NCBI GenBank assembly: GCA_947259095.1
Contig: CAMYLA010000013.1
Coordinates: forward strand, 62,001 to 126,000
DNA length: 64,000 nt
From: an uncultured Acidimicrobiaceae bacterium
GTDB lineage: Bacteria; Actinomycetota; Acidimicrobiia; Acidimicrobiales; SZUA-35
Direction of reading: 5' to 3'
Part shown: positions 36,265-58,054 of the stretch, one piece after another
How positions within the stretch are numbered: the first letter of the stretch is position 1
How the letters are laid out: the number at the start of each line of letters is the position of its first letter
Notes under the pieces: model-generated
Databases searched by the model: none
Told to the model about the DNA's origin: nothing
The model's input: only the letters and a program-made list of their open reading frames with translations
Position numbers and translations under genes: made by a program

Positions 36265-36345
36265 TGGCGCCTGACCTCCCGTCCGTACCGCGTCTCGATG
36301 AGCTACAACATAGAGGCTCCGAGATCGCCGCAACAGCGCCGATCA

Positions 36346-36765
36346 CTAGTGGAGGCAGAACTCGTTGCCCTCCGGGTCCCGCATGACCGCCCAGCGGTGG
36401 CCAGGGTGCTGACCGAAGTTCACGAGCTCGGCACCGGTGGCCTGCAGCCGGGCAACTTCGACATCGAGCTGGTCCGGGTCGACCGGCACGTCGAGGTGGA
36501 CCCGATTCTTTGCCGTTTTCGGCTCCGGGACCAGCTGGAACAGCAACCGAGGCCCGGCACCGGCCGGGGCGGTGGCCACCGCCTCCCTGAAGAAGAGCCG
36601 ACCGTCGATCTCCACCACATCAGCATCGGCGATGACGCCGTCGGCCAGCAGGCCGGCAATCATGTCGTGCCCGTCCTCGATCTCGTAGCCGAGCAGATCG
36701 GACCACCAGGCCGCCAGCCGATGGGGATCGGCGGCATCGAAGGTGATCTGCAGACCTCGAACCAT
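36346..36765 (-). CDS. VOC-family (glyoxalase-like) protein
   Basis: A 139-residue vicinal-oxygen-chelate fold protein. It begins with GLQITFDAADPHRLAAWWSDLLGYE, ends with GHRWAVMRDPEGNEFCLH, and has NRVHLDVPVDPDQLD in the middle. This is the Glyoxalase_6-type single-domain form, often of unknown substrate. Metal ligands may be the histidine in VHLDV and the glutamate in GNEFCLH. It lies between the aldehyde dehydrogenase and dihydropyrimidinase genes with 31 and 81 bases on each side and is probably cotranscribed. Confidence 0.85.
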   Translation of the reverse strand: MVRGLQITFDAADPHRLAAWWSDLLGYEIEDGHDMIAGLLADGVIADADVVEIDGRLFFREAVATAPAGAGPRLLFQLVPEPKTAKNRVHLDVPVDPDQLDVEVARLQATGAELVNFGQHPGHRWAVMRDPEGNEFCLH

Positions 36766-36796
36766 GACGTCTCCGCTCCCCGACCTCGACCCCCGC

Positions 36797-38209
36797 TCAG
36801 AGCAGGTACTGGCTCAGGCCCCGGCGGAGGTACCTGCCGTCGCCTTTCGCCCCCAGGTAGCTCTGGTTCTCGATGATGACCTTGCCTCTCGACAGCACCG
36901 TGTCGACCCGGCCCTGGACCTCGAAGCCCTCATAGGCCGAGTAGTCCATGTTCATGTGGTGATTGTCGACGCTGATACTCCAGGTCGCCTCGGGGTCGTA
37001 CAGCACGATGTCGGCGTCGGCCCCGGGCTGGATCGTGCCCTTCTGGGGGTAGAGACCGAACATCCTGGCCGGTGTGGTGGCGCACAGCTCGACCCAGCGG
37101 GGCAGGCTGATCTCACCCTGGACCACACCCTGGTAGATCAGGTCCATGCGGTGCTCGACCCCGCCGATGCCGTTGGGGATGGCCCGGAAGTCGTCGACCC
37201 CGAGGTCCTTCTGGTCCTTCATGCAGAACGGGCAGTGGTCGGTGGCGACCACGCTGAGATCGTTGGTTCGCAGCCCGGTCCAGAGGTCCTCGTGGTGGTG
37301 CTCGTGCTTGGACCGCAGCGGTGTCGAGCACACGTAGCCTGCGCCGGCGAACCCGGGAGCGCCGAGATGATCCTCCAGATTCAGGTAGAGATACTGGGGG
37401 CAGGTCTCGGCGAACACGTTGGCCCCCTTCCCCCTTGCGATCGCCACCTGCTCCAGGGCCTCCGAGGCCGACAGGTGCACGATATAGAGCGGCGACGCTC
37501 CCACCTTGGCCAGCTGGATGGCCCGATGGGTCGCTTCGCTCTCGAGCTCGGCCCGCCGCACGTAGCCGTGGTTGATCGGGGCGGTTTCACCCCGTTCCAC
37601 GGCCTGCTCGGCCAGCAGGTCGATGGCTATGCCGTTCTCGGCATGCATCATGATCATGCCGCCGTTGGATGCCGCCTGCTGCATCGCCAGCAGGATCTGC
37701 CGATCGTCTGACAGGAACACCCCGGGGTAGGCCATGAACAGCTTGAAGCTGGTGATGCCTTCGTTGACCAGCACATCCATGGCCTTCAGTGAGGCCTCGT
37801 TTACGTCGCCGACGATCATGTGGAAGCCGTAGTCGATGGCGCAGTTGCCCTCGGCCTTGGCGAACCAGGTGTCGAGGCTCTCCTGGACCTGCTGGCCGAA
37901 GCTCTGGACCGCGAAGTCGACGATGGTCGTGGTGCCACCCCAGGCCGCGGCCTTGGTCCCGTTCTCGAAGTCGTCGGAGGCGAACGTGCCACCGAACGGC
38001 AGCTCCATGTGGGTGTGACAGTCGACGCCGCCGGGGATGACGTACTTGCCCGTTGCGTCGATCACCCGCTCGGCTCCGGTTTCGGCGCTGTCTGCCAACG
38101 TCGAACCGGGCTGCAGCACGGCGACGATCTGCTCACCGTCTATGAGGACCTCGGCCGGGTCGGCCCCGGTTGCACTTACGACGGTCCCGCCTTTGATGAG
38201 TGTGGTCAT
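36797..38209 (-). CDS. hydA: Dihydropyrimidinase / D-hydantoinase
   Basis: A 470-residue cyclic amidohydrolase that opens dihydrouracil, dihydrothymine or 5-substituted hydantoins to N-carbamoyl amino acids. The binuclear metal ligands are visible: HTHME, the carboxylated lysine in SFKLFMAYPG, the histidine of MMHAENG, IVHLSASEAL, and the aspartate in VATDHCPF. GGTTTIVDFAVQ and the C-terminal DPEATWSISVDNHHMNMDY are typical. Full length. The next gene in transcription order is the VOC protein, and the aminotransferase and amidase precede it. The clustering favours pyrimidine catabolism over a stand-alone hydantoinase. Confidence 0.95.
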   Translation of the reverse strand: MTTLIKGGTVVSATGADPAEVLIDGEQIVAVLQPGSTLADSAETGAERVIDATGKYVIPGGVDCHTHMELPFGGTFASDDFENGTKAAAWGGTTTIVDFAVQSFGQQVQESLDTWFAKAEGNCAIDYGFHMIVGDVNEASLKAMDVLVNEGITSFKLFMAYPGVFLSDDRQILLAMQQAASNGGMIMMHAENGIAIDLLAEQAVERGETAPINHGYVRRAELESEATHRAIQLAKVGASPLYIVHLSASEALEQVAIARGKGANVFAETCPQYLYLNLEDHLGAPGFAGAGYVCSTPLRSKHEHHHEDLWTGLRTNDLSVVATDHCPFCMKDQKDLGVDDFRAIPNGIGGVEHRMDLIYQGVVQGEISLPRWVELCATTPARMFGLYPQKGTIQPGADADIVLYDPEATWSISVDNHHMNMDYSAYEGFEVQGRVDTVLSRGKVIIENQSYLGAKGDGRYLRRGLSQYLL

Positions 38210-38266
38210 GCTTGCTCTCCTTTTCGAACGCCCGGTGTGCGTTTCTTGCGTCTCGACCTATCCTGG

Positions 38267-39556
38267 TCAGCTCAATTCGGCGATGGCGTCGACCAGGGCG
38301 GCAGCACCCTCGTCGATCTCGGCCTCGCTCACGTTCAGCATCGGGGCGATCCGCAGCACGTTGCCGTAGAGGCCGCCCTTGCCGATCAACAGCTTGCGCC
38401 TGCGGCATGCCTCCAGCAGAGCTGCCGACCTTGCCGCATCGGGTTGAATGGAGCCGGGCTGCACCGTCTCGATGGCCTGCATGAGGCCGGCACCCCGGAG
38501 CTCGACGATCCAATCGGTGGCGTCGACCGTCGGCGTCAGCTTGTCGACGAGACGATCACCCATGGCCTTGGCGTTGGCCTGCATGCCCTCGTCGATCACG
38601 GCCCGGATGGTGGCCAGGCCGGCGGCGGCCGAGAGCGGGTTGCCGCCGAAGGTGGAGAACGAGGTGGCGCCGATGGCGTCCATGATCTCGGGACGAGCGA
38701 CACAGCCGGCGAGCGTGATGCCGTTGCCGACCCCCTTGGCGAAGGTCAACATGTCCGGCACGATGTCGTGGGCCTGATAGCCCCAGAAGTGCTCGCCGGT
38801 TCGACCCCAACCGGTCTGGACCTCGTCGCTGATGAAGAGGATGTTGCTCTCCGACAGCACCTTGTGCATCGAACCGAAGAAACCCTTGGGCGGCACGGCG
38901 AATCCGCCGACCCCCTGGATCGGCTCGGCGATCAGGGCCGCCACATCGCCGGCGCTCATCATGTCGAGGATCTGGATGAGGTCGTCGGTGGCGGCTCTGG
39001 TGTAGGCGTCGTCATCCAGCTCCCGGAAGGGGCTGCGGAGCCGGTAGCCACCCTGCACGAAGTTGACGTCGAGCCCCGAGATGCTGGTCGAGGACCACGA
39101 CCGGTGGGAGGTGATGGCCTGGGCGGTGAACGACCGGCCGTGGTAGCTGTTGCGCATGGCCAGGATCTGGTTCGACTTGCGGTAGCAGGTGGCCAGCAGC
39201 AGGGCCGTGTCGTTGGCCTCGGTTCCCGAGGTGGTGAAGAACACCTGGGCGTCCGGGATACCGGAGAGCTCGGCGATGAGCTCGGCCAGCTCGATCATCG
39301 GCTCCGACAGGTACAGCGTCGAGGTGTGCATGGTCTTGGCCGCCTGAGCCTGCACCGCCGCCACCACCTCGGGGTGGGAGTGGCCGATCATGGTTGTCAA
39401 CACCCCACCGAAGAAATCGAGGTAGCGGTCGCCATCCAGGGTGTGGATGTAGCTGCCCTCACCCCGGTCGATGGAGATCGGCTCCTCGAAGAAGGGGTGG
39501 ACGAATGACGGGAGGACGGCCTGGTACCGCTGGTAGAGCTCGGAATCTGTGGTCAT
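38267..39556 (-). CDS. Class III aminotransferase, beta-amino acid type (AGXT2-like)
   Basis: A 429-residue PLP-dependent aminotransferase. Features are SGTEANDTALLLA, NSYHGRSFTAQAI, ALIAEPIQGVGGF, ISDEVQTGWGRTGEHFWGY, and the cofactor lysine in DMLTFAKGVGNG. In this context it most likely transfers the amino group of beta-alanine or 3-aminoisobutyrate to pyruvate or glyoxylate, giving the semialdehydes used by the MmsA enzyme. It follows the amidase gene by 34 bases and precedes the hydantoinase gene by 57, so it is part of the operon. Confidence 0.93.
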   Translation of the reverse strand: MTTDSELYQRYQAVLPSFVHPFFEEPISIDRGEGSYIHTLDGDRYLDFFGGVLTTMIGHSHPEVVAAVQAQAAKTMHTSTLYLSEPMIELAELIAELSGIPDAQVFFTTSGTEANDTALLLATCYRKSNQILAMRNSYHGRSFTAQAITSHRSWSSTSISGLDVNFVQGGYRLRSPFRELDDDAYTRAATDDLIQILDMMSAGDVAALIAEPIQGVGGFAVPPKGFFGSMHKVLSESNILFISDEVQTGWGRTGEHFWGYQAHDIVPDMLTFAKGVGNGITLAGCVARPEIMDAIGATSFSTFGGNPLSAAAGLATIRAVIDEGMQANAKAMGDRLVDKLTPTVDATDWIVELRGAGLMQAIETVQPGSIQPDAARSAALLEACRRRKLLIGKGGLYGNVLRIAPMLNVSEAEIDEGAAALVDAIAELS

Positions 39557-39590
39557 CGTGCTATCCGATCGGTCGCGGTCGAGCGAACAT

Positions 39591-40433
39591 CTATGACTCG
39601 GTCAGCGGGCCGTACATGTCGGGCCGGCGGTCGCGGTAGAAGGCCCACTGGGCCCGGGTCTCGTCGATCAGGTCGAGGTCGAGGTCGCGGATCAGCAGTT
39701 CCTCTTCGGAATCGGAGGCCGTGCCCTCGACGAACTGGCCCCGCGGGTTGGCGAAGTAGGTGGTGCCGTAGAAGTCGTTGTCGCCAAGCGGTTCGATGCC
39801 GATCCGGTTGATGGCCCCCACGTAGTACATGTTGGCCGCCGCCGATGCGGTCTGCTCCAGTTGCCACAGGTAGGCCGACAGCCCACGGCTGGTTGCCGAC
39901 GGATTGAAGACCATCTGGGCTCCGTTGAGCCCCAGGGCCCGCCATCCCTCGGGGAAGTGCCGGTCGTAGCAGATGTAGACCCCGACCCGGCCGACCGAGG
40001 TCTCGAACACCGGGTAGCCGAGGTTGCCGGGACGGAAGTAGAACTTCTCCCAGAAACCCTTCACCTGGGGGATGTGGGTCTTGCGGTACTTGCCGAGGTA
40101 GCTGCCGTCGGCGTCGATCACCGCTGCGGTGTTGTAGAGGATGCCCGGCTGCTCCTGCTCGTACATCGGCAGCACCAGGACCATGCCCAGCTCGGCGCAG
40201 AGCTCCTGGAACCGCTTGGTGGTTGGCCCGTCGGGGATGGCCTCGGCGTAGGAGTAGTACTCGGCGTCCTGGACCTGGCAGAAGTACGGGCCGTAGAAGA
40301 GCTCCTGGAAACACATCACCCGGGCGCCGGCCTCGGCCGCCTCACGCATGTACTTCTCGTGGACGTCGATCATCGAGTCCTTGTCTCCGGTCCACTCCGC
40401 CTGCAGCAGTGCGGCTTTCACCGTGTTCGCCAT
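39591..40433 (-). CDS. Carbon-nitrogen hydrolase: beta-ureidopropionase / N-carbamoyl-amidase
   Basis: A 280-residue nitrilase-superfamily amidase. The catalytic triad is in FQELFYGPYF (Glu), KYRKTHIPQ (Lys) and ICYDRHFPEGWR (Cys). Length and motifs match N-carbamoylputrescine amidase, beta-ureidopropionase and N-carbamoyl-D-amino acid hydrolase. Since the dihydropyrimidinase is in the same operon, the likely reaction is removal of CO2 and ammonia from N-carbamoyl-beta-alanine to give beta-alanine. ATG 40433 is selected for AGGAGG eight bases upstream. It is the first gene of this operon, with a 231-base leader region that holds direct repeats. Confidence 0.93.
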   Translation of the reverse strand: MANTVKAALLQAEWTGDKDSMIDVHEKYMREAAEAGARVMCFQELFYGPYFCQVQDAEYYSYAEAIPDGPTTKRFQELCAELGMVLVLPMYEQEQPGILYNTAAVIDADGSYLGKYRKTHIPQVKGFWEKFYFRPGNLGYPVFETSVGRVGVYICYDRHFPEGWRALGLNGAQMVFNPSATSRGLSAYLWQLEQTASAAANMYYVGAINRIGIEPLGDNDFYGTTYFANPRGQFVEGTASDSEEELLIRDLDLDLIDETRAQWAFYRDRRPDMYGPLTES

Positions 40434-40510
40434 GGGCTGACTCCTCCTTGTTGCTTCGGCGGGCCGGTGCAAGCGCTCGCTTGGCCGCTGTTGCGCCCCG
40501 GTCGAGCCGA

Positions 40511-44776: not shown

Positions 44777-45864
<1,088 letters not shown>

Positions 45865-45868
<4 letters not shown>

Positions 45869-47595
45869 TCCGTGGCCCCCTGACCGTTGGCCTCGCCGCC
45901 GACGGTGGCCCCTTGCCCGTCGAGGTTGCTCAGATCCGGGAAGTGGCAGGCCACATAGTGGTCGTCGTCGACCTTTCGTATCTCCGGTTCCTCCTGGGCA
46001 CACTTCTCCCTGGCGGCCGGACAGCGGGTCCGGAACCGGCACCCGCTCGGCGGGTTGATCGGCGACGGCAGGTCGGCGGCGATCTGGGTCACCCTGGCCT
46101 CGATCAGCGGATCGGGATGGGGAATGGCCGAGAGCAACAGCTTGGAGTAGTGGTGCGTCGGCGCGGCATACAACGAGTCGGGTTTTGCCACCTCGCAGAT
46201 CTTGCCGAGATACATGACCGCCACCCGGTCGCTGACGTTCTTGACCACCGCCAGATCGTGGGCGATGAACACCAGGGTCAGCCCGTAGCGCTGCTTCATG
46301 TCCTCCAGCAGGTTGAGGATCTGAGCCTGGACCGACACGTCGAGCGCCGAGACCGGTTCGTCGCAGATGATGACCTTGGGGTCCATGATCAGGGCCCTGG
46401 CGATCGACAATCGCTGGGCCTGCCCACCGGAGAACTCGAACGGCTTGCGGTCGAGAGCCTGGTCCGGGTTCATGCCGACCGTCTCCAACATCTCACGGAC
46501 CTTCGGCTCGGCCCGCTCCCGGAGCTCGTTGCGGCGGATCTGGAGCTGACGGCGCACCACCCGGTACAGCCCGTAGTTGATGGCAACCGTTGCCACCAGA
46601 ACCGCCAACTTGGGGATCCCGTCCAGACCGGTGATGAAGAAGATCTGGAGCCCCACCACCGCCACCAACGCCGCGGCGATCCCCGATGCCCCGGCTCTGG
46701 CCGGCTTGACCATGGCGGCCAGGAACCACGCCGCCAAGCCGACGGCGATGGCCATCATCACCGCCCGAAGGACCCAGGCCGGGAAACCGGCGAAGCTGTC
46801 CCAGGTCCGGTAGACCATGAACACCGACACCGCCACGGCGAACCCCGCCCCCGCCAGTCCCACCGCGTTCGACACCGTCCCCATCACCCTCGACACCACG
46901 CCGAACGGCACGATGATGGCCAGGGCACACCACACCAGCCCGAGGATGAACAGCGCGCCGCCGACGGCGACCAGTACCGCCAGGACCGGGAAGCCGATGA
47001 TCTGGGCCGGTACCTGGAGCCACCCGAGCTGGTCTTCGAACCGGCGTCCCTCGGCCGCCTCACTGACGATCCACAGCACCAGCGCCAGCAGGGCCACCGG
47101 CAGCACATAGCGCAGCGGTTTGATGGCGAGCCCTGCCACCCGCTGGAAGAACTTGCCGAACTTCTCGAACCAGATCGATGTCGGGGGCCGACCGGCATCC
47201 TCCTCCCACCAGATCATCAGCGGTTCGCCGATGATGTCGCGAACGGTCCGACGGGGGTTGAGGGCCGAGATGGGATCCTGGAAGATCATCTGCAGCACCG
47301 GCCGGGTCCGCCGCAGGGTCTCGTCGTCGAGGCCGGTCAGCTCGACCTGATCGAGCACCACCGATCCGGACGTCGGCTGGGGGACCTGCATGATCGCCTT
47401 GCCGGTGGTCGACTTGCCGCAACCGGACTCGCCGACCAGCCCCAGGGTCTCCCCCTGGATCAGGTCGATGGAGATGCCGCTGACCGCATGGACCACATCG
47501 CCCGAGGTGCCGACCGGGAACTCGACCACCAGGTCCTCGGCACGCAGCAGGGTGTCGCCGGAGTCTCTGAGGTGTGCCTTGCCGCTGCCGGCCAC
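45865..47595 (-). CDS. OppF-like ABC ATPase with an inserted multi-helix membrane domain (system B)
   Basis: A 576-residue protein that has all ATPase motifs of OppF: Walker A GESGCGKST (55-63), Q-loop FQDPISALNPRR with Q106, signature FSGGQ (388-392), Walker B with D412/E413, and the C-terminal cysteine cluster. Between residues about 128 and 362 lies a block with about six or seven hydrophobic helices (near 162-178, 194-213, 214-231, 243-262, 273-295, 303-321 and 329-346), flanked by basic segments. In the paralogue at 55953-56975 the EPL-to-FSGGQ gap is 35 residues; here it is 261, so 226 are extra. The insert sits in the alpha-helical subdomain that touches the permease. The GTG start overlaps the permease stop by one base and matches the paralogue start (AGSGKAHLR). 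It could anchor the ATPase to the membrane or make it respond to lipid or another membrane protein. Confidence 0.93.
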
Positions 47596-48518
47596 TACAA
47601 CACCGACTCCCTCGGCTCGTATCGTTCCTGGAGTTTGTCGCCGACGAAGTTCAACGCCAGCACCGTCAGGAACATGGCGGCGGCGGGAACGAGGCTGATG
47701 TGGGCCGAGGTGTCGAGATCGGTGCGGCCCTTGTTGATCATGTCTCCCCAGGTCGGCGTTGGGGGCCGGACCGAGAGCCCGAGAAAGGCGACCGCCCCCT
47801 CGACCACGATCAGGTTGGCCATGACGATCAGCGAGTAGCTGACAAGCGCCGGTGCGACGTTCGGCAGCACCTCCCGGAACATCACCCTGCCGTTGCGGGC
47901 CCCCATCGTCTTGGCCGCAAGGACGAACTCCCGCTCCGACCACACCAGGGTCGAGGCCCGGACCACCCTGGCGATCGGTGCGATCGACAGCAGCACGAAC
48001 ACCAGGATCAGGATGAAGACCCGCCGGGTGGCGTCGCTGTCGAGGAACAGGATCAGCGACAGGGCCAGGATCAACGGCGGGATGACCAGGGTGGCGTCGG
48101 TGAAACCGGTGATCATCGTGTCGACCCGACTGCGATAGTAGCCGGCGGCCATGCCGATCGTGCCACCGATCATCAGGGCCAGCATCGCTCCGATCGAGGC
48201 CACGATCAGGCTGACCTGGGCACCGTAGATGACCCGGGAGAAGATGTCGCGGCCGGCCCCGTCGGTGCCGAACCAGAACTCCGAGTTCGGCCCCACCCGA
48301 TTCTGGCCTGCGAAGGTCTGGGCAGGGTCCTTCAGCGGCAGGGCCTCGGCGAAGATGGCGGCCAGGGTGAGGGCGACCAGAAAGCCGACCGCCAGCCAGA
48401 ACACAAAACCGACGGCCTTCGCCCTGCGGACCCCGGCCCCGGCCGCCGGGGCCGCCGCCGGTGCAACGACGGCGGCCGGCGCAACGGTCGGCAACCCTGT
48501 TTCCTGATCAGCCACCAT
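47595..48518 (-). CDS. Oligopeptide ABC transporter permease, DppC/OppC-like (system B)
   Basis: A 307-residue permease. A disordered Ala/Pro-rich 32-residue start is followed by the first helix, an external region with FWFGTDGAGRDIFSRVIYGAQVSL (typical of DppC), five further helices, and the EAA loop ASTLVWSEREFVLAAKTMGA. Full length. It overlaps the DppB-like gene by 11 bases and the ATPase gene by one. It pairs with the extended DppB-like permease to form the channel of system B. Confidence 0.93.
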   Translation of the reverse strand: MVADQETGLPTVAPAAVVAPAAAPAAGAGVRRAKAVGFVFWLAVGFLVALTLAAIFAEALPLKDPAQTFAGQNRVGPNSEFWFGTDGAGRDIFSRVIYGAQVSLIVASIGAMLALMIGGTIGMAAGYYRSRVDTMITGFTDATLVIPPLILALSLILFLDSDATRRVFILILVFVLLSIAPIARVVRASTLVWSEREFVLAAKTMGARNGRVMFREVLPNVAPALVSYSLIVMANLIVVEGAVAFLGLSVRPPTPTWGDMINKGRTDLDTSAHISLVPAAAMFLTVLALNFVGDKLQERYEPRESVL

Positions 48519-49797
48519 CGCCTCCTAAGCCGCTCCCGCCGGTTCTCAGCCGGGGATCGAGAGCAAGGTACGAGAAGTCGACCATCACCAGGATCAGGAC
48601 GTACAGGGTGGCGATGACCATCGTCCCCCCCTGGACCGCGATGAAGTCTCGCTGGGTGATGGCGTTGAACATGTACCCGCCGATGCCGGGGAGCACGAAG
48701 ATGATCTCGGTGATCAGCGCCCCACCGATCAGTGCCCCCACCGTGAAGCCCATGACCGTGAGCAGGGTGAACATCGACGGGCGGAGGGCGTGGCGCCACA
48801 GGATGCGCCGGGTTCGCAGCCCCTTCGATCTGGCCAGGTCGATGAAGGGCTGACGAAGAGTCCCGATCATGTCGGCCCGCAACAGCCGCATGAACACCGC
48901 GGCCTGGCCGAGGGCGAGCGACACCGCAGGCAGGAGCATGTGCTTGAAGTGGTCCACCTTGCTCTCCCCGAACGGTACATAGCGGGAGCCGGGCAGGATC
49001 TTCAATCCGATGTCGACGCCGAACACGGTCACACCACCGATGGCCAGGAACAGGATCAGGGTGATGGCCAGGACGAACGGCGGGACGGCGAAGAACCCGA
49101 GCATCACCGTGTTGATGGTGCGATCGGCGCGCTGGCCGTTGCGGTAGGCGGCGTAGACGCCCAGTGGGAACGAGATCACGGTCGCCAGGATGAGGGCGTA
49201 GAGCATCAACTGCAGCGACGGCGTGATCGAACGGGAGATCCCGTCTGCGACATCCTCCCGGAGCAGGACCGACGTGCCGAGATCGCCGACCATGGCGTCG
49301 CCGAGCCAGTTGCCGTACCGGGCGAAGAACGGTTCGTCGAGACCCATCTCGGCATTGACCCTGGCCACCGCGTCTGGGGTGGCGGAAGGGCCGAGGATGT
49401 TGATGGCCGGGTCGCCGGGAAGTGACGCCATCAGTGAGAACACGACGAACGAAACCGCCAACATGATGGGGATCACCCCCAACACCCGACGCACCGCATA
49501 GGGCCCGTTGGTGAGGAACGCGGCGGTGGTCCCGACCAGGACCACCAGGGCGAAGGTCCAACTGATCGGCGGTCGTTCGACGAAGGCCCAGACGATGGTC
49601 GCACCGGTGCCGACAACGGCCAGCGCACCGGCTCCCTGCCTGGCTGCAATGGCCACCAGGGAGGAGGCGATGACCGTGAGCACCATGATGGCGAACGACC
49701 ACGCCGAACGCTGCGACGAGGCGGCTGACAACCCGATGGCCAGGACCGCGCCGGCGGACATGACCAACAGAGCCGGTTTGCCCATCGCTGTGCGCAC
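48508..49797 (-). CDS. Oligopeptide ABC permease, DppB-like, with extra N-terminal helices (system B)
   Basis: From the GTG start at 49797 this permease has about 429 residues against about 310-320 usual. The canonical part begins at RRVLGVIPIMLAVSFVVFSL followed by ASLPGDPA and has the EAA loop LLRADMIGTLRQPFIDLARSKGLR. Before it lie about 100 residues with four hydrophobic segments (starting ALLVMSAGAVLAIG, WSFAIMVLTVIA, ALAVVGTGATIV and WTFALVVLVGTT) that DppB/OppB proteins do not have. An AAGGAG lies 11 bases before the GTG; an ATG at 49857 would add 20 residues. The same operon has a membrane insertion in the ATPase, so the two extra domains may work together. Confidence 0.9.
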   Translation of the reverse strand: MRTAMGKPALLVMSAGAVLAIGLSAASSQRSAWSFAIMVLTVIASSLVAIAARQGAGALAVVGTGATIVWAFVERPPISWTFALVVLVGTTAAFLTNGPYAVRRVLGVIPIMLAVSFVVFSLMASLPGDPAINILGPSATPDAVARVNAEMGLDEPFFARYGNWLGDAMVGDLGTSVLLREDVADGISRSITPSLQLMLYALILATVISFPLGVYAAYRNGQRADRTINTVMLGFFAVPPFVLAITLILFLAIGGVTVFGVDIGLKILPGSRYVPFGESKVDHFKHMLLPAVSLALGQAAVFMRLLRADMIGTLRQPFIDLARSKGLRTRRILWRHALRPSMFTLLTVMGFTVGALIGGALITEIIFVLPGIGGYMFNAITQRDFIAVQGGTMVIATLYVLILVMVDFSYLALDPRLRTGGSGLGGDGG

Positions 49798-49986
49798 TGT
49801 CGGTTTCGCTCCTTCCGCTCGGGTTCGAGTCAGGGGATTGGCCGGCGACCCCACCATCTCCCCTTGGGGAGATCGAGGGTCGGCTGCACCCTCTGCGCAG
49901 TGACGCCGGTTCTTCTGCCTACGTTGGTTCCGGGTCCTCGTTGACCACTGCGTCGTGTCCTGGGCCTGGGTCCTGTGGCGGTGGGG

Positions 49987-51864
49987 CTACCCCTGGCAGT
50001 TGCCGTCGGTGCACCAGATCTGGGTCAGGTGGTGTTTGCCTGCGATCACCGGCTTGGTCAAGCCGTAGCCCGGAATCTCGAGGTCGGTGATGTTCTGGAC
50101 CCTCTGGTTGGCTACAACGCCCCACAGCGTCCAGACGGTCCAGAAATTCCAGACGTTCTCGCCGAACAGCCGGTTGACCGCTTCGGTGGCCTCCTGGCGG
50201 GCTGCGGGGTCGGGGTTCTGGCGGATCGTGGTGTAGGCGGCGTCCATGTCGGCATCCTGGAACCGGCCGAAGTTGAGAGCCAGCTCCGGAACGCTGGGAT
50301 CGATTGGGCTGGCCGTGGCCGAGTTCCACCAGTACCACTGCTCGGTGGGATCGACCCCGGCGTGGTTGCGCCAACCCTGCGCCTGGAACGTCCCGGCCAG
50401 GGCAAGGCCGATGTACTGACCCTGTTCGATCGGGGTGATGCTGACCTCGATCTCGTCGGCGAAGGCGTCCCGCCACATCGAGGCGATCAGCTCGTTGGTC
50501 TCGACGTTGAAGGCGTCATTGGTGGTGTTGAAGCTGAAGGCGATCGGCACCGTGCCGTGATCGGTCTTGCAGGTCTCCCACTCGGTGGCCGCCGCCTCGA
50601 GGTCGAAGCCGGGGTAGCCGGTGTCCTCGAGGTGGCCGATCGAGCCCGGCGGGAACGGGCCATTGGCCGGGCTGACGATGCCGGCATATCGCTCGTCGGC
50701 CACCCGTTGCTGGTCGATGGCGTGGGCCAGGGCACGGCGACAGCTCAACTGCAGCAGCGGACTGGACGAGTTCGCATCGCCGGGGTCCATGGCCAGGCCG
50801 TCGAGCCCACGGACGAAGGCCAGCGTCGGGTTCTCGCCGGCGCCGACGTTCAACAGGATGTAGTTCGTCTCGCCGAAGTCGTTGGCCTGGAGCAACACGA
50901 ACTCGCCGTCGCTCTCGTACTTGGCGATCTCATCGGCGTTGGCGGTGTGGATGATGTCGAACTGCCCCGACTTGAGGCCGTTGGACCGTCCCTGGATGTC
51001 GACCGCCACCACCAACTCGACCTCGTCGAGGTATGGCAGCCCCTCACCGGTGGCATTCGGTCCGTCGCCCCGCCAGTAGTCCTCGTTGCGTTCGGCCATG
51101 AAGCTGTTGCCGTTGCCGGGGGTGTAGGACACGAACTTGAACGGGCCGAGCCCCACCGGCTCGGACGGGTTGCCCGTGGCCGCCGCTGCCTCCTCCTCGG
51201 TGAGGAGAGGGTTGTTGGACAGTGTTTGCATCCAGGTCGGCGAGAGCATCATGCCGCAGACCTCGGTCCGCAACGCCTTCGGCCCGAGCGCCTCAGGAGC
51301 GCTGTAGCTCAGGGTGACCGTCTGACCGTCGGCGGTGACCTCGTCGAGTCCGAGGAACGCCGGCCCGGTCAGTGGGCTGAACCGGCAGGCGTCGATGTTG
51401 TACTTGACGGCCGCACCGTCGAACGGGGTGCCGTCGTGGAAGGTGATGCCCTCCCGGATGGTCATCGTCCACTCGGTGAAGTCCTCGTTCGGTTCGACGG
51501 TCTCCACCAGGTAGGGCTGGATCTCGCCGTTCTCGTCTGTGATGAACAGACCGTCGGTGATGGTCCGCAGGATCATCCGGCAGGAGATGGCGCAGGAGGT
51601 TGCGTAGTGGGTCCAGGGGTTGGCGGAGTCGGCCTCGATGCCGTAGATCAGCCGACCGCCTCGAACCGGCCCTTCGGCGGTGTCCCGCCCGTCACCGCCT
51701 TCGGCGTCGCCTTCGTCGCGGTCCTGGGTTTCGACCTGCTGATCCCCGTCCTCGGAACCGGTGGTGACGTCACTGCTCTCGTCGTCGCCATCGCTCCCGC
51801 AAGCGGCGGCGATCAGCGACAATGCCAGCGCAATGGCCAGCAACCTTGCAATGCGAGACGACAT
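49987..51864 (-). CDS. Oligopeptide/dipeptide-type substrate-binding lipoprotein (system B)
   Basis: A 625-residue SBP_bac_5-type binding protein. A short signal peptide with lipobox LIAAAC is followed by an acidic linker (about 22-60) and then GGRLIYGIEADSANPWTHYATSC. Other features are WTMTIREGITFHDGTPFDGAAVKYN and GPFKFVSYTPGNGNSFMAERNEDYW. A pair of cysteines in the early mature part (ATSCAISCRM) could form a disulfide. ATG 51864 is preferred because GGGGGAGAGG is just upstream; codons further up are possible but would lengthen the signal. The ligand could be peptides or nickel, sugars or other solutes, which this fold also binds. It is the first gene of system B. Confidence 0.93.
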   Translation of the reverse strand: MSSRIARLLAIALALSLIAAACGSDGDDESSDVTTGSEDGDQQVETQDRDEGDAEGGDGRDTAEGPVRGGRLIYGIEADSANPWTHYATSCAISCRMILRTITDGLFITDENGEIQPYLVETVEPNEDFTEWTMTIREGITFHDGTPFDGAAVKYNIDACRFSPLTGPAFLGLDEVTADGQTVTLSYSAPEALGPKALRTEVCGMMLSPTWMQTLSNNPLLTEEEAAAATGNPSEPVGLGPFKFVSYTPGNGNSFMAERNEDYWRGDGPNATGEGLPYLDEVELVVAVDIQGRSNGLKSGQFDIIHTANADEIAKYESDGEFVLLQANDFGETNYILLNVGAGENPTLAFVRGLDGLAMDPGDANSSSPLLQLSCRRALAHAIDQQRVADERYAGIVSPANGPFPPGSIGHLEDTGYPGFDLEAAATEWETCKTDHGTVPIAFSFNTTNDAFNVETNELIASMWRDAFADEIEVSITPIEQGQYIGLALAGTFQAQGWRNHAGVDPTEQWYWWNSATASPIDPSVPELALNFGRFQDADMDAAYTTIRQNPDPAARQEATEAVNRLFGENVWNFWTVWTLWGVVANQRVQNITDLEIPGYGLTKPVIAGKHHLTQIWCTDGNCQG

Positions 51865-51904
51865 GCCTCTCCCCCTGTTGGTGCGTTGACGAGCCATCGT
51901 TACA

Positions 51905-51940
51905 AACAACCCCGTGTGACGCAAGTTACACCGGGTTGTT
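51905..51940 (-). terminator. Strong hairpin between the two oligopeptide operons
   Basis: AACAACCCCGTGT (51905-51917) pairs with ACACCGGGTTGTT (51928-51940) with one mismatch across a 10-base loop. On the minus strand it follows the DppC stop of system A by 24 bases and the second arm runs into GTTTGT, so it can act as a terminator or attenuator before the system B binding-protein gene. Confidence 0.65.
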
Positions 51941-51964
51941 GGTGACGGGCCGAGCGCCAGGAAT

Positions 51965-52951
51965 CTACAGGGCCGAGCTGCGGTACGCCGCCCGCTTCTG
52001 GAACCAATCGCCGACCTGGTTCAGCGACAGCACGGTGAACACCAGCGCCAGCGCCGGCGCCACCACCTGCAACAGGTTGATGTCGATGTCGCGCCGGGCC
52101 TGGTTGATCATGTTGCCCCATGTCGAGGTTGGCAATTGCACGCTGAGGCCGAGGAAGCTCAGCGAGCCCTCGACCACGATCACGAACGCCGCCGCCACCA
52201 TGGCGTATGACAGCACCGTCGGCGCCACATTGGGGACGATCTCCCGCCGGAGAATGGTGGCCGGCTTGGTGCCGATGGCGCGAGCCGCCAACACGAACTC
52301 CCGGTTGCTGATGGCCAGGCTGATCGCTCGGGACACCCTGGTGTAGGCCGGGATCGACAGGAAGCCGATCACCATGCTGATGACGAACAGATCCCGGACC
52401 TTGAAGATCGAGACCATGGCCAGCAGCAGGATGAGGGCGGGGAAGGCGAGGATGACGTCGATGATCGACATGATCACCGTCTCGGTCCGACCCCGGACAT
52501 AGCCGACCAGGGAACCGAGGAAGCCGCCGACGATCACACCGAAACCGGCGGCCACGGTGGCGACGATGAGGCTGACCCAGCCGCCGTGGACGATACGGGC
52601 GAAGGTGTCGCGGGCGATGGCATCGGTGCCGAGCCAGTGCTGGGCCGATGGACCCTCGATCGGTTCGCCGGTTCCGAACTCGCCGGTGTCGGGATTGAAG
52701 TTGTTGGTCTGGAAGTTCGGGTCCTGCAATGGCAGTGCACCGTCGAACACCACGACGTCGATCTTGGCGTAGATGGCGCCACCGAAAACGAGGATCAACC
52801 AGATACTGGACAGCTTGACCAGGATCGGCATGTCCCGGAAGACCTCGCGAGGCGAGGCCCGCTTCGGCTTCCCACCGCCGGGCGAGCCCGGAACGATGTT
52901 GCCGGCGAAGATCTCCTCCGTCGGGGTCACCGGCGTCATCGCATCCGCCAT
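51965..52951 (-). CDS. Oligopeptide ABC transporter permease, DppC/OppC-like (system A)
   Basis: A 328-residue permease of the DppC type. After about 35 disordered residues comes the first helix, an external segment with AQHWLGTDAIARDTFARIVHGGWVSL, then five helices and the EAA loop AISLAISNREFVLAARAIGTK. Length is normal. It lies four bases after the DppB-like gene. Its partner and ATPases are of conventional size, so system A gives a reference for the unusual system B. Confidence 0.94.
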   Translation of the reverse strand: MADAMTPVTPTEEIFAGNIVPGSPGGGKPKRASPREVFRDMPILVKLSSIWLILVFGGAIYAKIDVVVFDGALPLQDPNFQTNNFNPDTGEFGTGEPIEGPSAQHWLGTDAIARDTFARIVHGGWVSLIVATVAAGFGVIVGGFLGSLVGYVRGRTETVIMSIIDVILAFPALILLLAMVSIFKVRDLFVISMVIGFLSIPAYTRVSRAISLAISNREFVLAARAIGTKPATILRREIVPNVAPTVLSYAMVAAAFVIVVEGSLSFLGLSVQLPTSTWGNMINQARRDIDINLLQVVAPALALVFTVLSLNQVGDWFQKRAAYRSSAL

Positions 52952-52955
52952 GGGT

Positions 52956-53912
52956 TCAGCTCCTTCGAATCCGTGGATCGAGCACCGTGTAGAACAGATC
53001 GACCACGGTGTTGATGATCACGTATGCCACCGCCACGAACACCGTGATGCCCTGGATGACCAGGATGTCACGCTGGTTGATGGCATTGATCAGCCGGAAG
53101 CCGAGGCCGGGGATGGCGAAGAGTGTCTCGATGACGACGGTGCCGCCCAGCAGTGCGCCGAAGTTGATGCCGACGATGGTTGCCAGGCTCAGCGAGCTGG
53201 GACGCAGTGCATGGCGGAGCAGGATGTAGCGGTCGGACAGGCCCTTGGCTCTGGCCGAGAGAATGAAGTTCTCCTGCAGCGTGGCGATCATGTCGGATCG
53301 GATGAGCCGGGAGAAGATCGCCATCTGGGTCAGGGCCAGGGCGGTGGCGGGCAGGATTGCGGTCTTGAGGTTCTCCACCAGGCCCTTGTCGCTGATCCGG
53401 TTCCAGTTCGATGCCGGTAACCATTTCAGTTGGACCGCGAACAACCAGATCAACATGATCCCGGTGATGAAGTTCGGCACCGAGAGCGCAACCTGCACCC
53501 CCGCCGAGGTGGTCTGATCCTGCCACTTACCCTGGCGGTAGGCACCGATCACCCCGATGGGGATGGCCAGTATCACCGCGATGAGGATCGCCATGAACGC
53601 CAGCTGGGCGGTGACCGGCAGGCGATCTTTGATGGTCTGGGAAACCGACTGGCCGCTGTTGATGTAGGACTCGCCGAGATCACCCTGAAGGGCGCTGCCG
53701 AGCCATTTCACGTAGCGGACCGGGAGCGGTTCGTCGAGCCCCAGATCGGCCCGGACCTCTTCGAGCAGCGCCTCGTTCTGGATGCCCTCCTGGCCCAGCA
53801 CTGCGGCGGCCGGATCGCCGGGGAGGAGCGAGGTCATGAGAAATGACAGCAGCGTCACTGCGAACAGTGTTGCCACCAGCCGCAACAGCCTTGTTGCAAC
53901 GATTCTTCCCAT
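52956..53912 (-). CDS. Oligopeptide ABC transporter permease, DppB/OppB-like (system A)
   Basis: A 318-residue permease that starts directly with the canonical first helix (RLLRLVATLFAVTLLSFLM, then TSLLPGDPA) and has the usual QEGIQNEALLEEVRADLGLDEPLPVRYVKWL region and the EAA loop LIRSDMIATLQENFILSARAKGL. It has no N-terminal extension, in contrast to the system B paralogue. It lies 51 bases after the binding-protein gene. Confidence 0.94.
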   Translation of the reverse strand: MGRIVATRLLRLVATLFAVTLLSFLMTSLLPGDPAAAVLGQEGIQNEALLEEVRADLGLDEPLPVRYVKWLGSALQGDLGESYINSGQSVSQTIKDRLPVTAQLAFMAILIAVILAIPIGVIGAYRQGKWQDQTTSAGVQVALSVPNFITGIMLIWLFAVQLKWLPASNWNRISDKGLVENLKTAILPATALALTQMAIFSRLIRSDMIATLQENFILSARAKGLSDRYILLRHALRPSSLSLATIVGINFGALLGGTVVIETLFAIPGLGFRLINAINQRDILVIQGITVFVAVAYVIINTVVDLFYTVLDPRIRRS

Positions 53913-53963
53913 GAGCGCTCGCTCCCCCTTTACCGACGAACCTTCAGAGTAACCGGCCCGGCC

Positions 53964-55778
53964 CTACTGGGCGATCCAGGCCATGCTCCAGCGGCCCTCG
54001 GCGTTGGGATGCCCAGCGCCGAGCGTGCCGTTCGGCAGCTCCCAGCTGTTCAGGCCCATGATGTCGTCCCGCACGCCGAGGGCGGTTGCGGTGTGACCGG
54101 AGAACCAGATCGGCAGATCTTCCGCCAGCTGCAACATGACTTCTTCGTAGAGCGCATAGCGCGCATCGAAGTCATCGGTCTGGACGGCGGCGACCAGGTT
54201 GGCGAACACATCGGCGTTGAAGTAGTTCGACCAGTTGAGGGGCGACGGGGCGGGCACTCCGGCGGCCTCGGCGATCTCCGCCGTCGGCGGCGCCAGGGCC
54301 GGGTTCAGGAAGGTCGACGGATCCTCATCGCTGGCCACACGCCAGCAGTGGGTGGTGTGCTGACCGACGAAGCCGTTGTCGGAACCGAGTGCATAGTCGA
54401 TGTGGGTCTGCTGATCGTAGTTCGTCAGCTCGACGTTCACCAGCTCGCTCCCGCTCCAGGTCTGCTCCAGCACCTGCATGGCGGCGATCAGGGTCGGATC
54501 GGGCGGGCAGGACAGCTCGGTGTCGATCGGCTCGCCGACGGCCTTGCCGTCGGAGCGCTCCGGGTCGTCGATGTACTCCTGCAGCGACGCAACGCCGGCT
54601 TCGAAGTCGAACTGCGGCCATGCCGCTGCGGCCGCCTCGGAGTACCACGGGGAGTCGGGGCTGAACCACTGGGTACCGGGCAACGAGATGCCGGTGCCGC
54701 CGAGGGCTTCGATCACGTTCTCCTGGCTGTTCATCTGGGTCAGGCCTCGCCGAACCCGGATGTCGTCGAACGGCGGGACGAGCACATTGAACATGCCACC
54801 GCCGACGTTGTTGCCCTGGAACTCGAACAGGAAGATCTCGGAACCCTCCTCGATGGCGACCCTGGCGTCACGGATGGTGCCCTGACGCAGGGTGTGCATG
54901 ACCTGGGTGGTGCCCGAAAGCAGGGAATCGAGCCGGGTCCCCTCATCGGGGATGGGACGGAAGCTGATCCTGTCGAGGTACGGCAGCTGCGTGCCGTTGG
55001 CATCGACACCCCAGTAGTCGGGGTTACGCTCGACGATGGTTTCGTTGTCGAGGTCGCGGCTGACGAACAGGAATGGACCGGTACCGATTGGGTTGTCGTT
55101 GTAGCCGTCGGGATCCGACGCCGCCAGCGACGGTTCGAAGACCATGCCCAGTGGAGCCCGGGACAGGTAGGCCGGGAAGGCCGAGTTGGATGCGCTCAGG
55201 GTGTAGGTGACCTCGAGCTCGCCGGTCGCCTCGACCCCGATGAGGTTCGATGCCGTCACCTGGCCGGCCGAGGTGGTACCGGTCTGCTGAACCGGGAACA
55301 TGTCGGCGATGGTCTGGGCGGTCAACGGCGTGCCGTCGTGGAACGAGATCCCGGACCGCAGGTTGCCGGTCCAGATGGTGAAGTCCTCGTTTGAGGAGAT
55401 GTCCTCCAGCAACCAGCCTTCGTAGGTACCGTCGGACGTGGTCTCCATCAGCTTGTCGTAGATGGTCGGCAACACGTTCATGCAGGGTGACCCGCAGGTG
55501 TCCTCCCAGGGCCGCATGCCGACGATCTCGGCTTCGAGACCGATGGCGATCTCGCCGCCTTGGGTGGCGACCGCATCGGAGGCCGCGACCTCGGTATCGA
55601 CATCACCTTCGGCTTCTTCGCCGGCGGAGGTTTCGGTTTCCCCGTCGCCGTCGGTTTCGGTTTCGCTCGACTCGCCGCTTGCCTCTGCGTCGTCCCCGTC
55701 GTCGCTGCCACATGCGGCCGCGACGAGAGTGAACGCAAGAAGCAACGCGAAGAGCCTGTACAAGCTTCGCTTTGTCAT
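53964..55778 (-). CDS. Oligopeptide/dipeptide-type substrate-binding lipoprotein (system A)
   Basis: A 604-residue SBP_bac_5-type lipoprotein. The lipobox is LVAAAC near residue 22, and an acidic Glu/Thr/Ser linker of about 45 residues follows. The mature part has GGEIAIGLEAEIVGMRPWEDTCGSPCMN, NLRSGISFHDGTPLTAQTIADMF and GPFLFVSRDLDNETIVERNPDYWG. The two early cysteines (TCGSPC) resemble the pair in system B and may bridge. ATG 55778 has GGAGAGGAAA upstream. Sequence is only distantly like the system B protein, so ligand spectra probably differ. Confidence 0.93.
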   Translation of the reverse strand: MTKRSLYRLFALLLAFTLVAAACGSDDGDDAEASGESSETETDGDGETETSAGEEAEGDVDTEVAASDAVATQGGEIAIGLEAEIVGMRPWEDTCGSPCMNVLPTIYDKLMETTSDGTYEGWLLEDISSNEDFTIWTGNLRSGISFHDGTPLTAQTIADMFPVQQTGTTSAGQVTASNLIGVEATGELEVTYTLSASNSAFPAYLSRAPLGMVFEPSLAASDPDGYNDNPIGTGPFLFVSRDLDNETIVERNPDYWGVDANGTQLPYLDRISFRPIPDEGTRLDSLLSGTTQVMHTLRQGTIRDARVAIEEGSEIFLFEFQGNNVGGGMFNVLVPPFDDIRVRRGLTQMNSQENVIEALGGTGISLPGTQWFSPDSPWYSEAAAAAWPQFDFEAGVASLQEYIDDPERSDGKAVGEPIDTELSCPPDPTLIAAMQVLEQTWSGSELVNVELTNYDQQTHIDYALGSDNGFVGQHTTHCWRVASDEDPSTFLNPALAPPTAEIAEAAGVPAPSPLNWSNYFNADVFANLVAAVQTDDFDARYALYEEVMLQLAEDLPIWFSGHTATALGVRDDIMGLNSWELPNGTLGAGHPNAEGRWSMAWIAQ

Positions 55779-55952
55779 GGATTTCCTCTCCCGTTTGATA
55801 CTTGCATTGCGTCGGAGCTTCCTGGCCCTGACGCCTGTCTGAATGAATACATGATTCGCTGTCGACCACATGGTCAGCAACGACAATCGTCGCCAGGTCG
55901 ACATCGGAACGTCCGCCGGCTCGGCCCTCTGCTCGGAGACTGCTTCGAAACG

Positions 55953-56975
55953 CTACACGACCTCCGCCTCGGCGGTATCCAGCTCCACCAAGGGATGATG
56001 GCAGGCAACGAAATGATCCTCTGACACTCTCCGCATCTGTGGCTCCGCCCGCTCACAGATCTCGTCGGCCAGGGGACAGCGGGTCCGGAACCGGCACCCG
56101 GAGGGAGGATCGATCGGTGATGGCAGATCTCCCTCCGCTTCGACCGACTCGTCGAGCTTCACCAGCGGATCGGGAATGGGACTGGAGCCGAGCAGGAGTT
56201 GGGTATAGGGGTGGGCCGGATGGGCGTAGAGCTCGTCCGATTCGGACATCTCGCACATCTTGCCCAGGTACATCACCGCCACCCGGTCGCTGATGTTCTT
56301 CACCACTGCGAGGTCGTGGGCGATGAACACCAGCGTCAGGCCGTACTTCTGCTTCAGATCCTCCAGCATGTTCAGGATCTGGGCCTGGACCGAGACGTCG
56401 AGGGCCGACACCGGCTCGTCGCAGATGATCAGCTCCGGCTCCATGACCAGCGCCCTGGCGATCGAGATCCGCTGGCACTGCCCGCCGGAGAACTCATGGG
56501 GCCGCTTGTAGCGGGCCGCATCGGGATCGATGCCGACGGCGTGGAGCAACTCGCTCACCAGCGCCCACTGCTCGTCGTTGTCTGACGGGCCCCAGACCCG
56601 GAGGGGCTCGGCCACCACATCACCGATCCGCCGCCGAGGATTCAACGAAGAGATCGGATCCTGGAAGATCATCTGGAGATCGGTACGGTGCTCCCGCATC
56701 TGCTCCGGCCCGAGCTGGGTGAGGTCCTCGCCGTCGAGGACCACCGCGCCCGACGTCGGCTTCGGGAGTTGCAGCAGCGCCCGACCGGTGGTGGATTTGC
56801 CACACCCGGACTCACCGACGAGGCCGAGGGTCTCCCCCCGGGCGATGTCGAAGCTGATGCCGCTGACCGCATGGACCTTCCTGCCACGCCCGGCGTCAAA
56901 CTCCACGGTGAGACCTTCCACCCTCAGCAGCGTCTCGTCCTCTGGCCGAAGGTGGGCCTTCCCCGAGCCGGCCAT
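55953..56975 (-). CDS. Oligopeptide ABC transporter ATP-binding protein, OppF-like (system A)
   Basis: A 340-residue ATPase of ordinary size. Walker A is GESGCGKST, the Q-loop is MIFQDPISSLNPRRRI, the signature is FSGGQCQRIS, Walker B is LIICDEPVSALD, and the switch histidine is FIAHDL. The C-terminal cysteine cluster is GCRFRTRCPLADEIC and FVACH. It is the closest relative of the system B ATPase in the window; both start AGSGKAHLR. It has only 35 residues between the EPL of the Q-loop region and the signature. Its ATG overlaps the OppD-like stop by one base. Confidence 0.95.
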   Translation of the reverse strand: MAGSGKAHLRPEDETLLRVEGLTVEFDAGRGRKVHAVSGISFDIARGETLGLVGESGCGKSTTGRALLQLPKPTSGAVVLDGEDLTQLGPEQMREHRTDLQMIFQDPISSLNPRRRIGDVVAEPLRVWGPSDNDEQWALVSELLHAVGIDPDAARYKRPHEFSGGQCQRISIARALVMEPELIICDEPVSALDVSVQAQILNMLEDLKQKYGLTLVFIAHDLAVVKNISDRVAVMYLGKMCEMSESDELYAHPAHPYTQLLLGSSPIPDPLVKLDESVEAEGDLPSPIDPPSGCRFRTRCPLADEICERAEPQMRRVSEDHFVACHHPLVELDTAEAEVV

Positions 56976-58054
56976 CAGCCTGTCACTCCCTGGTCGATGA
57001 GCTCCTCGGTGGCCTGGATCTCCCCCGCCACCGCCAGGGCCTGAGGCAGACCCGCCTCGAGGTTGTGCTCGTAGGCCCGACGGTTCTCCTCGCTCCCCAC
57101 CGGAAACCAGCAGGCGAAGGTGTGATCGGGGCCGGCCGCGGGGGCCAGCGGCGGCTCCTCCTCACGGCAACGGGCTTGGGCGTATGGGCAGCGGGGGGCG
57201 AAGCTGCAGCCCGTCGGCGGGCTCATCAGATCCGGCGGGCGGCCGGCGATCGCCGCCAGCTTGGTGTGTTTCGGCTGGTCCACCTTGGGGATGGCCTTGA
57301 GCAGCGCCTCGGTGTAGGGGTGGCGCATGTCGGCGAACAACTGGCCGGTCGGTGCCTTCTCGACGACCTTGCCGGCATACATCACGGCGATCTGATCGGT
57401 CCGGCCGGCCACGACCCCGAGATCGTGGGTGACCAGGATCATCGTCATGAAACGGTCCCGCTGCTGGCTGGCCAGGAGATTGAGGATCTGATGCTGGACC
57501 GTGACATCGAGGGCGGTGGTCGGCTCGTCTGCGAACAGCATCTTGGGCCCGCAGGCCAGGGCAATGGCGATACAGACCCGTTGCCGCATCCCCCCGGACA
57601 GCTCGTGTGGGTAGTTGGATATCCGGGCCTCGGGTTCGGGAATTCGAACGCTCCGCAGGAGCTGGACCGCGTTCTCCTCGGCCTCGGACTTCGAGAAGTC
57701 GAGGTGGTAGCGGAGGTGCTCGGTGAGCTGCCGGCCGATCTTGACCACCGGGTTGAGCGACGTCATCGGGTCCTGGAACACCATGGCCATCTCGATGCCC
57801 CAGAGCTTCTTCATCTCCTTTGCCGAGAGATCGAGCAGCTCGGTTCCGTCGTAGATCACCGAGCCGGTGGAGATGGCGTTGTCTGCGATGTTCAGCCGCA
57901 TGACCGACCGGCTGAGAACGGTTTTACCGGAGCCCGATTCGCCGACGATGCCGAGGGTGGAGCCACGAGGCAACGAGAACGACACCCCATCGACCGCCTT
58001 GACCACGCCGGCCTGGGTCTCGAAATGGGTTCGGAGATCGTCGACGACCAGCAG
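56975..58054 (-). CDS. Oligopeptide ABC transporter ATP-binding protein, OppD-like (system A), unusual start
   Basis: An OppD-type ATPase with Walker [11 protein letters not shown]-loop [13 protein letters not shown], signature LSGGMRQRV, Walker [13 protein letters not shown] and the C-terminal cysteine cluster ([15 protein letters not shown]). The frame is open up to a stop at 58109-58111, and residues upstream of the first GTG (58006) match the family start: [16 protein letters not shown]. No ATG, GTG or TTG lies in frame between 58006 and 58108. I place the start at the CTG at 58054, preceded by GAGG (58060-58063), but this is a guess. If the protein began at 58006 it would lack the first beta strand. 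It is the first gene of system A. Confidence 0.85.

Follow-up and report, generated by a model that had tools for sequence, protein, structure and literature searches.

The ATPases of ABC importers are taken to be soluble proteins that dock on their permease from below, and in type I importers the first transmembrane helix of DppB would lie near the partner subunit. An interrupted ABC ATPase is familiar from Rad50 and the SMC proteins, in which the domain is split by a long insert that separates Walker A from the signature, and the two parts refold into one head. That insert is a soluble coiled coil, whereas the insert described here is hydrophobic and its protein would be an importer motor. 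The nucleotide-binding domain of ABC-F proteins such as EttA has an internal Arm subdomain, which varies in length and has been lost in some lineages; the Arm is charged, touches the ribosome and has no membrane part (PMC6723617), in contrast to our hydrophobic insert.

The window, a stretch of 64,000 nucleotides from an uncultured Acidimicrobiaceae bacterium, encodes a DppF-like protein whose best sequence and fold matches are the Escherichia coli importers DppBCDF (8z1v) and OppBCDF (8z21) and the Mycobacterium tuberculosis importers OppABCD (8j5q) and DppABCD (8wd9). The DppF/OppF subunits of these type I peptide importers share the ATPase motifs, the C-terminal cysteine domain and the partner subunits with the window system, but in the alignments shown, with chain lengths of 333–334, they have no insert of this kind. 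According to published work (PMC12136057), E. coli DppB and DppC possess six transmembrane helices each, DppF docks on DppC through N113 and E124, among other residues, the four cysteines of its C-terminal domain are the ligands of a [4Fe-4S] cluster, and the helical subdomain rotates by ∼20 degrees during the cycle. The initial annotation knew of no described ABC ATPase with a membrane domain inside the alpha-helical subdomain. No such protein was found among the matches listed from the open-licence literature, judged by titles and the beginnings of abstracts, although such an absence is weak. As far as we have seen, a membrane domain between Walker A and the signature of an ABC ATPase is undescribed.

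The dppF-like frame runs on the minus strand from a GTG at 47595 to a TGA (45865–45867). Its start codon overlaps the dppC stop by 1 base and its stop overlaps the dppD ATG by 4 bases (ATGA). In the 576-residue product, Pfam recognized ABC_tran in two separate stretches as well as oligo_HPY (PF08352), the latter with 57.1 bits against a cut-off of 27.1. Walker A, Q-loop, ABC signature, Walker B, D-loop and H-switch are invariant in the 16-row and 8-row alignments, as are four C-terminal cysteines (C519, C525, C532 and C550) in the 16-row alignment. Judged by these motifs, the gene is a DppF/OppF-type ABC ATPase with an intact catalytic apparatus, as had been stated when the frame was annotated. 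The protein scored 357.4 bits with the NCBIfam equivalog model for OppF (NF011659, cut-off 540) and 276.6 bits with that for DppF (NF043071, cut-off 660). These missed cut-offs say little, because the ordinary, insert-free paralogue P0003 in the same window also falls short of both (397.6 and 298 bits).

The P-loop-to-signature distance is 333 residues in the window DppF versus 108 in P0003, and amounts to 114 in both DppD partners within the window. After its EPL motif the window protein has ∼225 extra residues that are absent from the paralogue at 55953–56975, and pairwise alignment with P0003 placed the borders at EPL..W before and at a V..ML..VG helix after the insert. Both the ∼226 extra residues originally noted between the Q-loop region and the signature and the use of this paralogue to mark the insertion point were thus confirmed. 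Whereas the helical subdomain is uninterrupted in soluble DppF/OppF proteins, that of the window protein is broken by the 333-residue gap and its hydrophobic segments, solubility being a predicted property here. Within its EPL region the window DppF has an N113 and an E124 (8-row alignment), and from the +1 offset with which the match of P0003 to 8z1v_D opens we infer that they correspond to the DppC-contacting N113 and E124 of E. coli DppF. The insert begins a few residues past this pair, directly after the EPL motif.

The insert itself had no significant match in Pfam, where only HrpB4 appeared under the cut-off in one of eight members (E 0.024), or among PDB sequences (only 6q5v, at E 0.94). 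When the model of the whole DppF was submitted to Foldseek, the best 50 of 1403 matches were ABC ATPases and none of these was specific to the insert alone. An intein or other removable element was considered and dropped, as the loop that harbours the block is variable and no family of this kind was matched. Coordinates of all features are given in Table 1.

Table 1. Features of the insert-bearing operon and of the control paralogues (window positions).
Feature	Coordinates	Strand	Basis or remark
dppF-like gene (576 aa) for an ABC ATPase interrupted by a hydrophobic domain	45868..47595	-	ORF; Pfam ABC_tran in two stretches and oligo_HPY
Insert, ~residues 128-359	46519..47214	-	Alignment with paralogue; no significant Pfam/PDB sequence match
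Hydrophobic helix 1, residues 163-181	47053..47109	-	Hydropathy; within AF2 helix 138-182
Hydrophobic helix 2, long, residues 200-237	46885..46998	-	Part of AF2 helix 187-237; split by crude predictor in window protein and some members
Hydrophobic helix 3, residues 243-264	46804..46869	-	AF2
Hydrophobic helix 4, residues 271-296	46708..46785	-	AF2
Hydrophobic helix 5, residues 302-323	46627..46692	-	AF2
Hydrophobic helix 6, residues 326-350	46546..46620	-	AF2 helix continues to residue 372, into ATPase
dppD-like ATPase, motif spacing 114, no insert	44780..45868	-	
dppC-like permease	47598..48518	-	
dppB-like permease, extended at its N-terminus; position of start codon uncertain	48511..49857	-	ATG candidates 111, 87, 79 and 54 residues before core
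DppB N-terminal extension as cut (49821 is our cut, not a start codon)	49507..49821	-	Four extra hydrophobic segments before canonical TM1
Substrate-binding protein of insert operon, start uncertain	49990..51924	-	
Paralogous dppB without extension, control	52959..53912	-	
Paralogous dppF without insert (P0003), control	55956..56975 (frame 55953-56975)	-	Motif gap 108

Seven non-overlapping 19-residue windows with a mean Kyte–Doolittle value of at least 1.3 were found in the whole DppF, and all fall inside the insert. AlphaFold2 (AF2) modelled the window protein with low confidence (mean pLDDT 63, pTM 0.54, 16-row alignment) and predicted six insert helices, comprising residues 138–182, 187–237, 243–264, 271–296, 302–323 and 326–372. 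The first would begin four residues after ATPase helix 118–133, and the sixth would be continuous with the next ATPase helix. A crude hydropathy segmenter returned six segments in 5/8 long inserts and seven in the other three, which include the window protein; in the shorter inserts of relatives described below it counted two segments in 2/4 and three in 2/4. The odd counts arise because the long second hydrophobic stretch gets split. The segmenter is also loose, since it reports a segment or two within the ATPase portions of these proteins and one in P0003. Lysine plus arginine averaged 4.7 and 7.1 in the two insert flanks versus 0.9–1.8 in any loop. However, the flanks are longer than the loops and also carry aspartate plus glutamate (3.5 and 5.3), and predicted inner loops (1.1 and 1.8) barely differ from outer loops (1.3, 0.9 and 1.0), so that charge lends the topology weak support. 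An even number of crossings is favoured by the AF2 model, and also because the chain has to return to the ATPase. The six or seven hydrophobic helices of the initial annotation were recovered as such by the segmenter and as six by AF2. Its argument for even parity was sustained in part: the six modelled helices and the occurrence of two size classes speak for it, and the odd segment counts in three of the eight long and two of the four short inserts speak against it.

Among 61 near genomes, the window's included, the full-length insert protein was present in three further genomes (G011, G013 and G023) at 72–79% identity. A shorter insert of about two helices occurs on another contig (C7) of the window genome and in G024 and G009, with gaps of 215, 226 and 226, respectively; G233 contains a fourth with a gap of 230, and G389 a contig-end fragment. 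The four short inserts align to the first part of the long insert only and lack its later motifs. With the window genome counted, an insert profile matched 6/39 genomes of the family, where every candidate was scored, and 14/397 genomes (6/203 genera) of the order. In the scans of the phylum (396 genomes; alignment A1 at E 1e-8) and of the class (395 genomes; alignment A3 at E 1e-6) the window genome alone was matched. At order, phylum and class level, up to six candidates per genome were scored in the rows shown, so that divergent inserts may have escaped notice.

A scan of named genome contigs gave 14 actinobacterial records of metagenome-assembled genomes (MAGs) with the long insert (eight Acidimicrobiia, two Acidimicrobiales, two Acidimicrobiaceae, one Microthrixaceae and one uncultured actinobacterium), all at a gap of 333; L041, L042 and L043 are the same genomes as G023, G013 and G011, and other records may overlap genomes of the order scan. 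The spacing was exact in 15/15 proteins of the six-helix class tested. The window operon is complete, comprising genes for a substrate-binding protein (SBP), DppB, DppC, DppF and DppD, and the same order was seen in 13 of the 14 loci, the remaining one (L045) beginning inside dppC. A search for other carriers and their operons had been named as a check in the initial annotation. At the short-insert locus L019, DppD and the SBP are encoded on the opposite strand beside DppF-DppC-DppB. Because 14 MAG records share the insert at identical spacing, an assembly error is very unlikely. The window genome is itself a MAG with 7.1% contamination, which would suit an assembly error, a fusion of frames or a helical block that stays out of the membrane; given this recurrence, the hydrophobicity of the block and the purifying selection acting on it, we consider such explanations barely credible.

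The inserts are only 42–71% identical to that of the window, yet their spacing is exact. In an eight-row alignment of the six-helix class, the two ends of which still consist of ATPase residues, 63/259 columns are invariant, including S55, E56, R61, E64, W69, P73, R140-T141-W142, R177-A178-G179, G200-L201-D202-G203 and K206 (alignment numbering). Polar loop motifs, SE....R..E, RTW.S, P.RAG and GLDG..KL, are invariant in this class. Such residues suggest more than a greasy anchor, and the block is wired into a subdomain that moves during the cycle (PMC12136057). It could accordingly be a sensor or regulator of membrane state or of a ligand that tunes the ATPase rate via the helical subdomain, independently of anchoring. 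We regard this as rather unlikely, as no sensor family was matched and the four short members align without the later motifs.

Selection was analysed for 15 proteins, using 90 pairs with an insert dS of 0.05–1.5. In the 40 pairs listed, which start from the lowest insert dS and all fall among L045–L054, omega was 0–0.23 for the insert and 0–0.13 for the ATPase, the insert value being the higher in 36. The median over all 90 pairs, saturated ones included, was 0.33 for the insert versus 0.11 for the ATPase. Comparison of close relatives thus shows purifying selection on the insert that is weaker than that on the ATPase, with the clean evidence coming from one group of relatives (L045–L054). The weaker constraint is consistent with a neutral ornament, an ancient tolerated insertion kept only since its loss would misfold the ATPase. 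We find this improbable in view of the exact spacing at such divergence, the number of invariant columns and the low omega in close pairs. The original proposal of a membrane domain interrupting an OppF-like ATPase is supported in that the hydrophobic block is shared by relatives and constrained, its insertion into the membrane being predicted.

Beyond that proposal, we observed both a family of inserts of two sizes and an N-terminal extension of DppB. The window DppB has up to ∼110 residues before TM1, and taking the nearest ATG as the start would leave two of the extra segments. Nine of the 12 matched NCBIfam permease models start at residue 120–124 of the window DppB or later, and no position of these nine corresponds to the extension. 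For the piece as cut, AF2 predicted helices at 16–34, 38–60, 64–82 and 86–132 (mean pLDDT 58). Two extra segments were found in 12/14 extended rows counted and four in 2/14, the window DppB and that of L043 having four.

The extension was present at 18/18 insert loci with DppB in view versus 0/29 insert-free loci, the former including several near-identical relatives. The 18 consist of 17/17 loci plus L090, with L041–L043 left out as copies of L022–L024 and L045 for lack of DppB; at the four short-insert loci the extension was judged by eye from the sequence rather than by the segment finder. The extension was absent from 30 DppB rows. For 29 of these an ATPase is in view and is insert-free, whereas L065 has no ATPase in view; L081 gave no DppB. 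At L062 the insert-free ATPase is on the other strand, and the ATPases of L062 and L064 are of the DppD type by our rule. The ideas that the insert derives from the DppB extension, or arose by internal repeat, were rejected: hhalign found no relation between insert and extension and no repeats within the insert, where the sole high score (TM34 versus TM56) came from columns placed in both pieces. Contig C26 of the window genome also encodes an orphan DppB-like permease (L059:3354-4553) that has additional hydrophobic segments at its N-terminus. It matches extended DppBs best (34–39% identity), and no partner DppC, DppD, DppF or SBP was recognised in the 8 kb analysed.

A tree of four genes (DppB core, DppC, DppD and DppF without the insert; 1255 columns, 32 operons, midpoint root) united all 12 of its insert operons on a single branch (99/97), within which the six-helix class had values of 100/100 and the short class 94/83. 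A tree of DppF alone was too weak and was set aside; it gave two changes for the insert label, and one change in 15% of bootstrap trees. Given the single branch, the insert and the DppB extension fit one shared origin rather than repeated co-occurrence, and by the four-gene tree both traits would fit one event on an ancestral branch, kept together since. Because one branch carries it, the link between DppB and the insert may reflect shared ancestry only.

Extra helices in both permease and ATPase on the same branch, and conserved polar residues in the six-helix version, would also be expected if the block added to the translocation path, for example by giving a hydrophobic or otherwise unusual substrate a lateral entry or a third membrane domain. 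Neither the SBPs, which resemble typical members of their family, nor the DppD spacing is out of the ordinary, however, which makes this a doubtful explanation. We give similarly little credence to a polytopic-motor class of importer, in which the membrane block and the DppB extension would together form a third membrane module acting in gating or substrate passage.

With moderate confidence, we instead propose that DppF has become an integral membrane protein, anchored alongside the permease and probably close to the DppB extension. The helix block (six helices, or two in relatives) would occupy the loop that joins the first and second helices of the ABC helical subdomain, immediately behind the stretch touching the DppC coupling helix. 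The chain would leave the ATPase fold, make an even number of membrane crossings and then re-enter, so that both ATPase halves fold in the cytoplasm. We infer that the block lies against DppC, close to the additional N-terminal helices of DppB, and thereby gives the ATPase a permanent, private tether to its own permease while moving with the rotation of the helical subdomain. The low confidence of the AF2 model, the odd segment counts, the orphan extended DppB and the lack of an hhalign relation between insert and extension weigh against this proposal. Likely uses of such a tether would be private pairing among the many Dpp/Opp paralogues of the genome, or tighter coupling. If this is true, the coupling (helical) subdomain of an importer motor can carry a membrane domain, and a genome rich in Dpp/Opp paralogues would offer a natural system for studying private versus promiscuous pairing of ATPase and permease.

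The window contains two complete Dpp-type systems in tandem on the minus strand (44780–58006), one of which has the insert. At eight loci (L046–L052 and L054) two genes flagged as SBPs stand in tandem before the insert operon, and at L053 there is one. Amidohydro_3 genes are found near insert operons of different size class (L042:11812-13542 and L019:4485-6218). In the window, minus-strand genes for an aldehyde dehydrogenase, a dihydropyrimidinase (TIGR02033, over the cut-off), a class III aminotransferase and a carbon-nitrogen hydrolase follow each other in a row (34780–40472). By its gene content this row resembles a pyrimidine or hydantoin breakdown cluster, and it is located 4–10 kb from the transporter.
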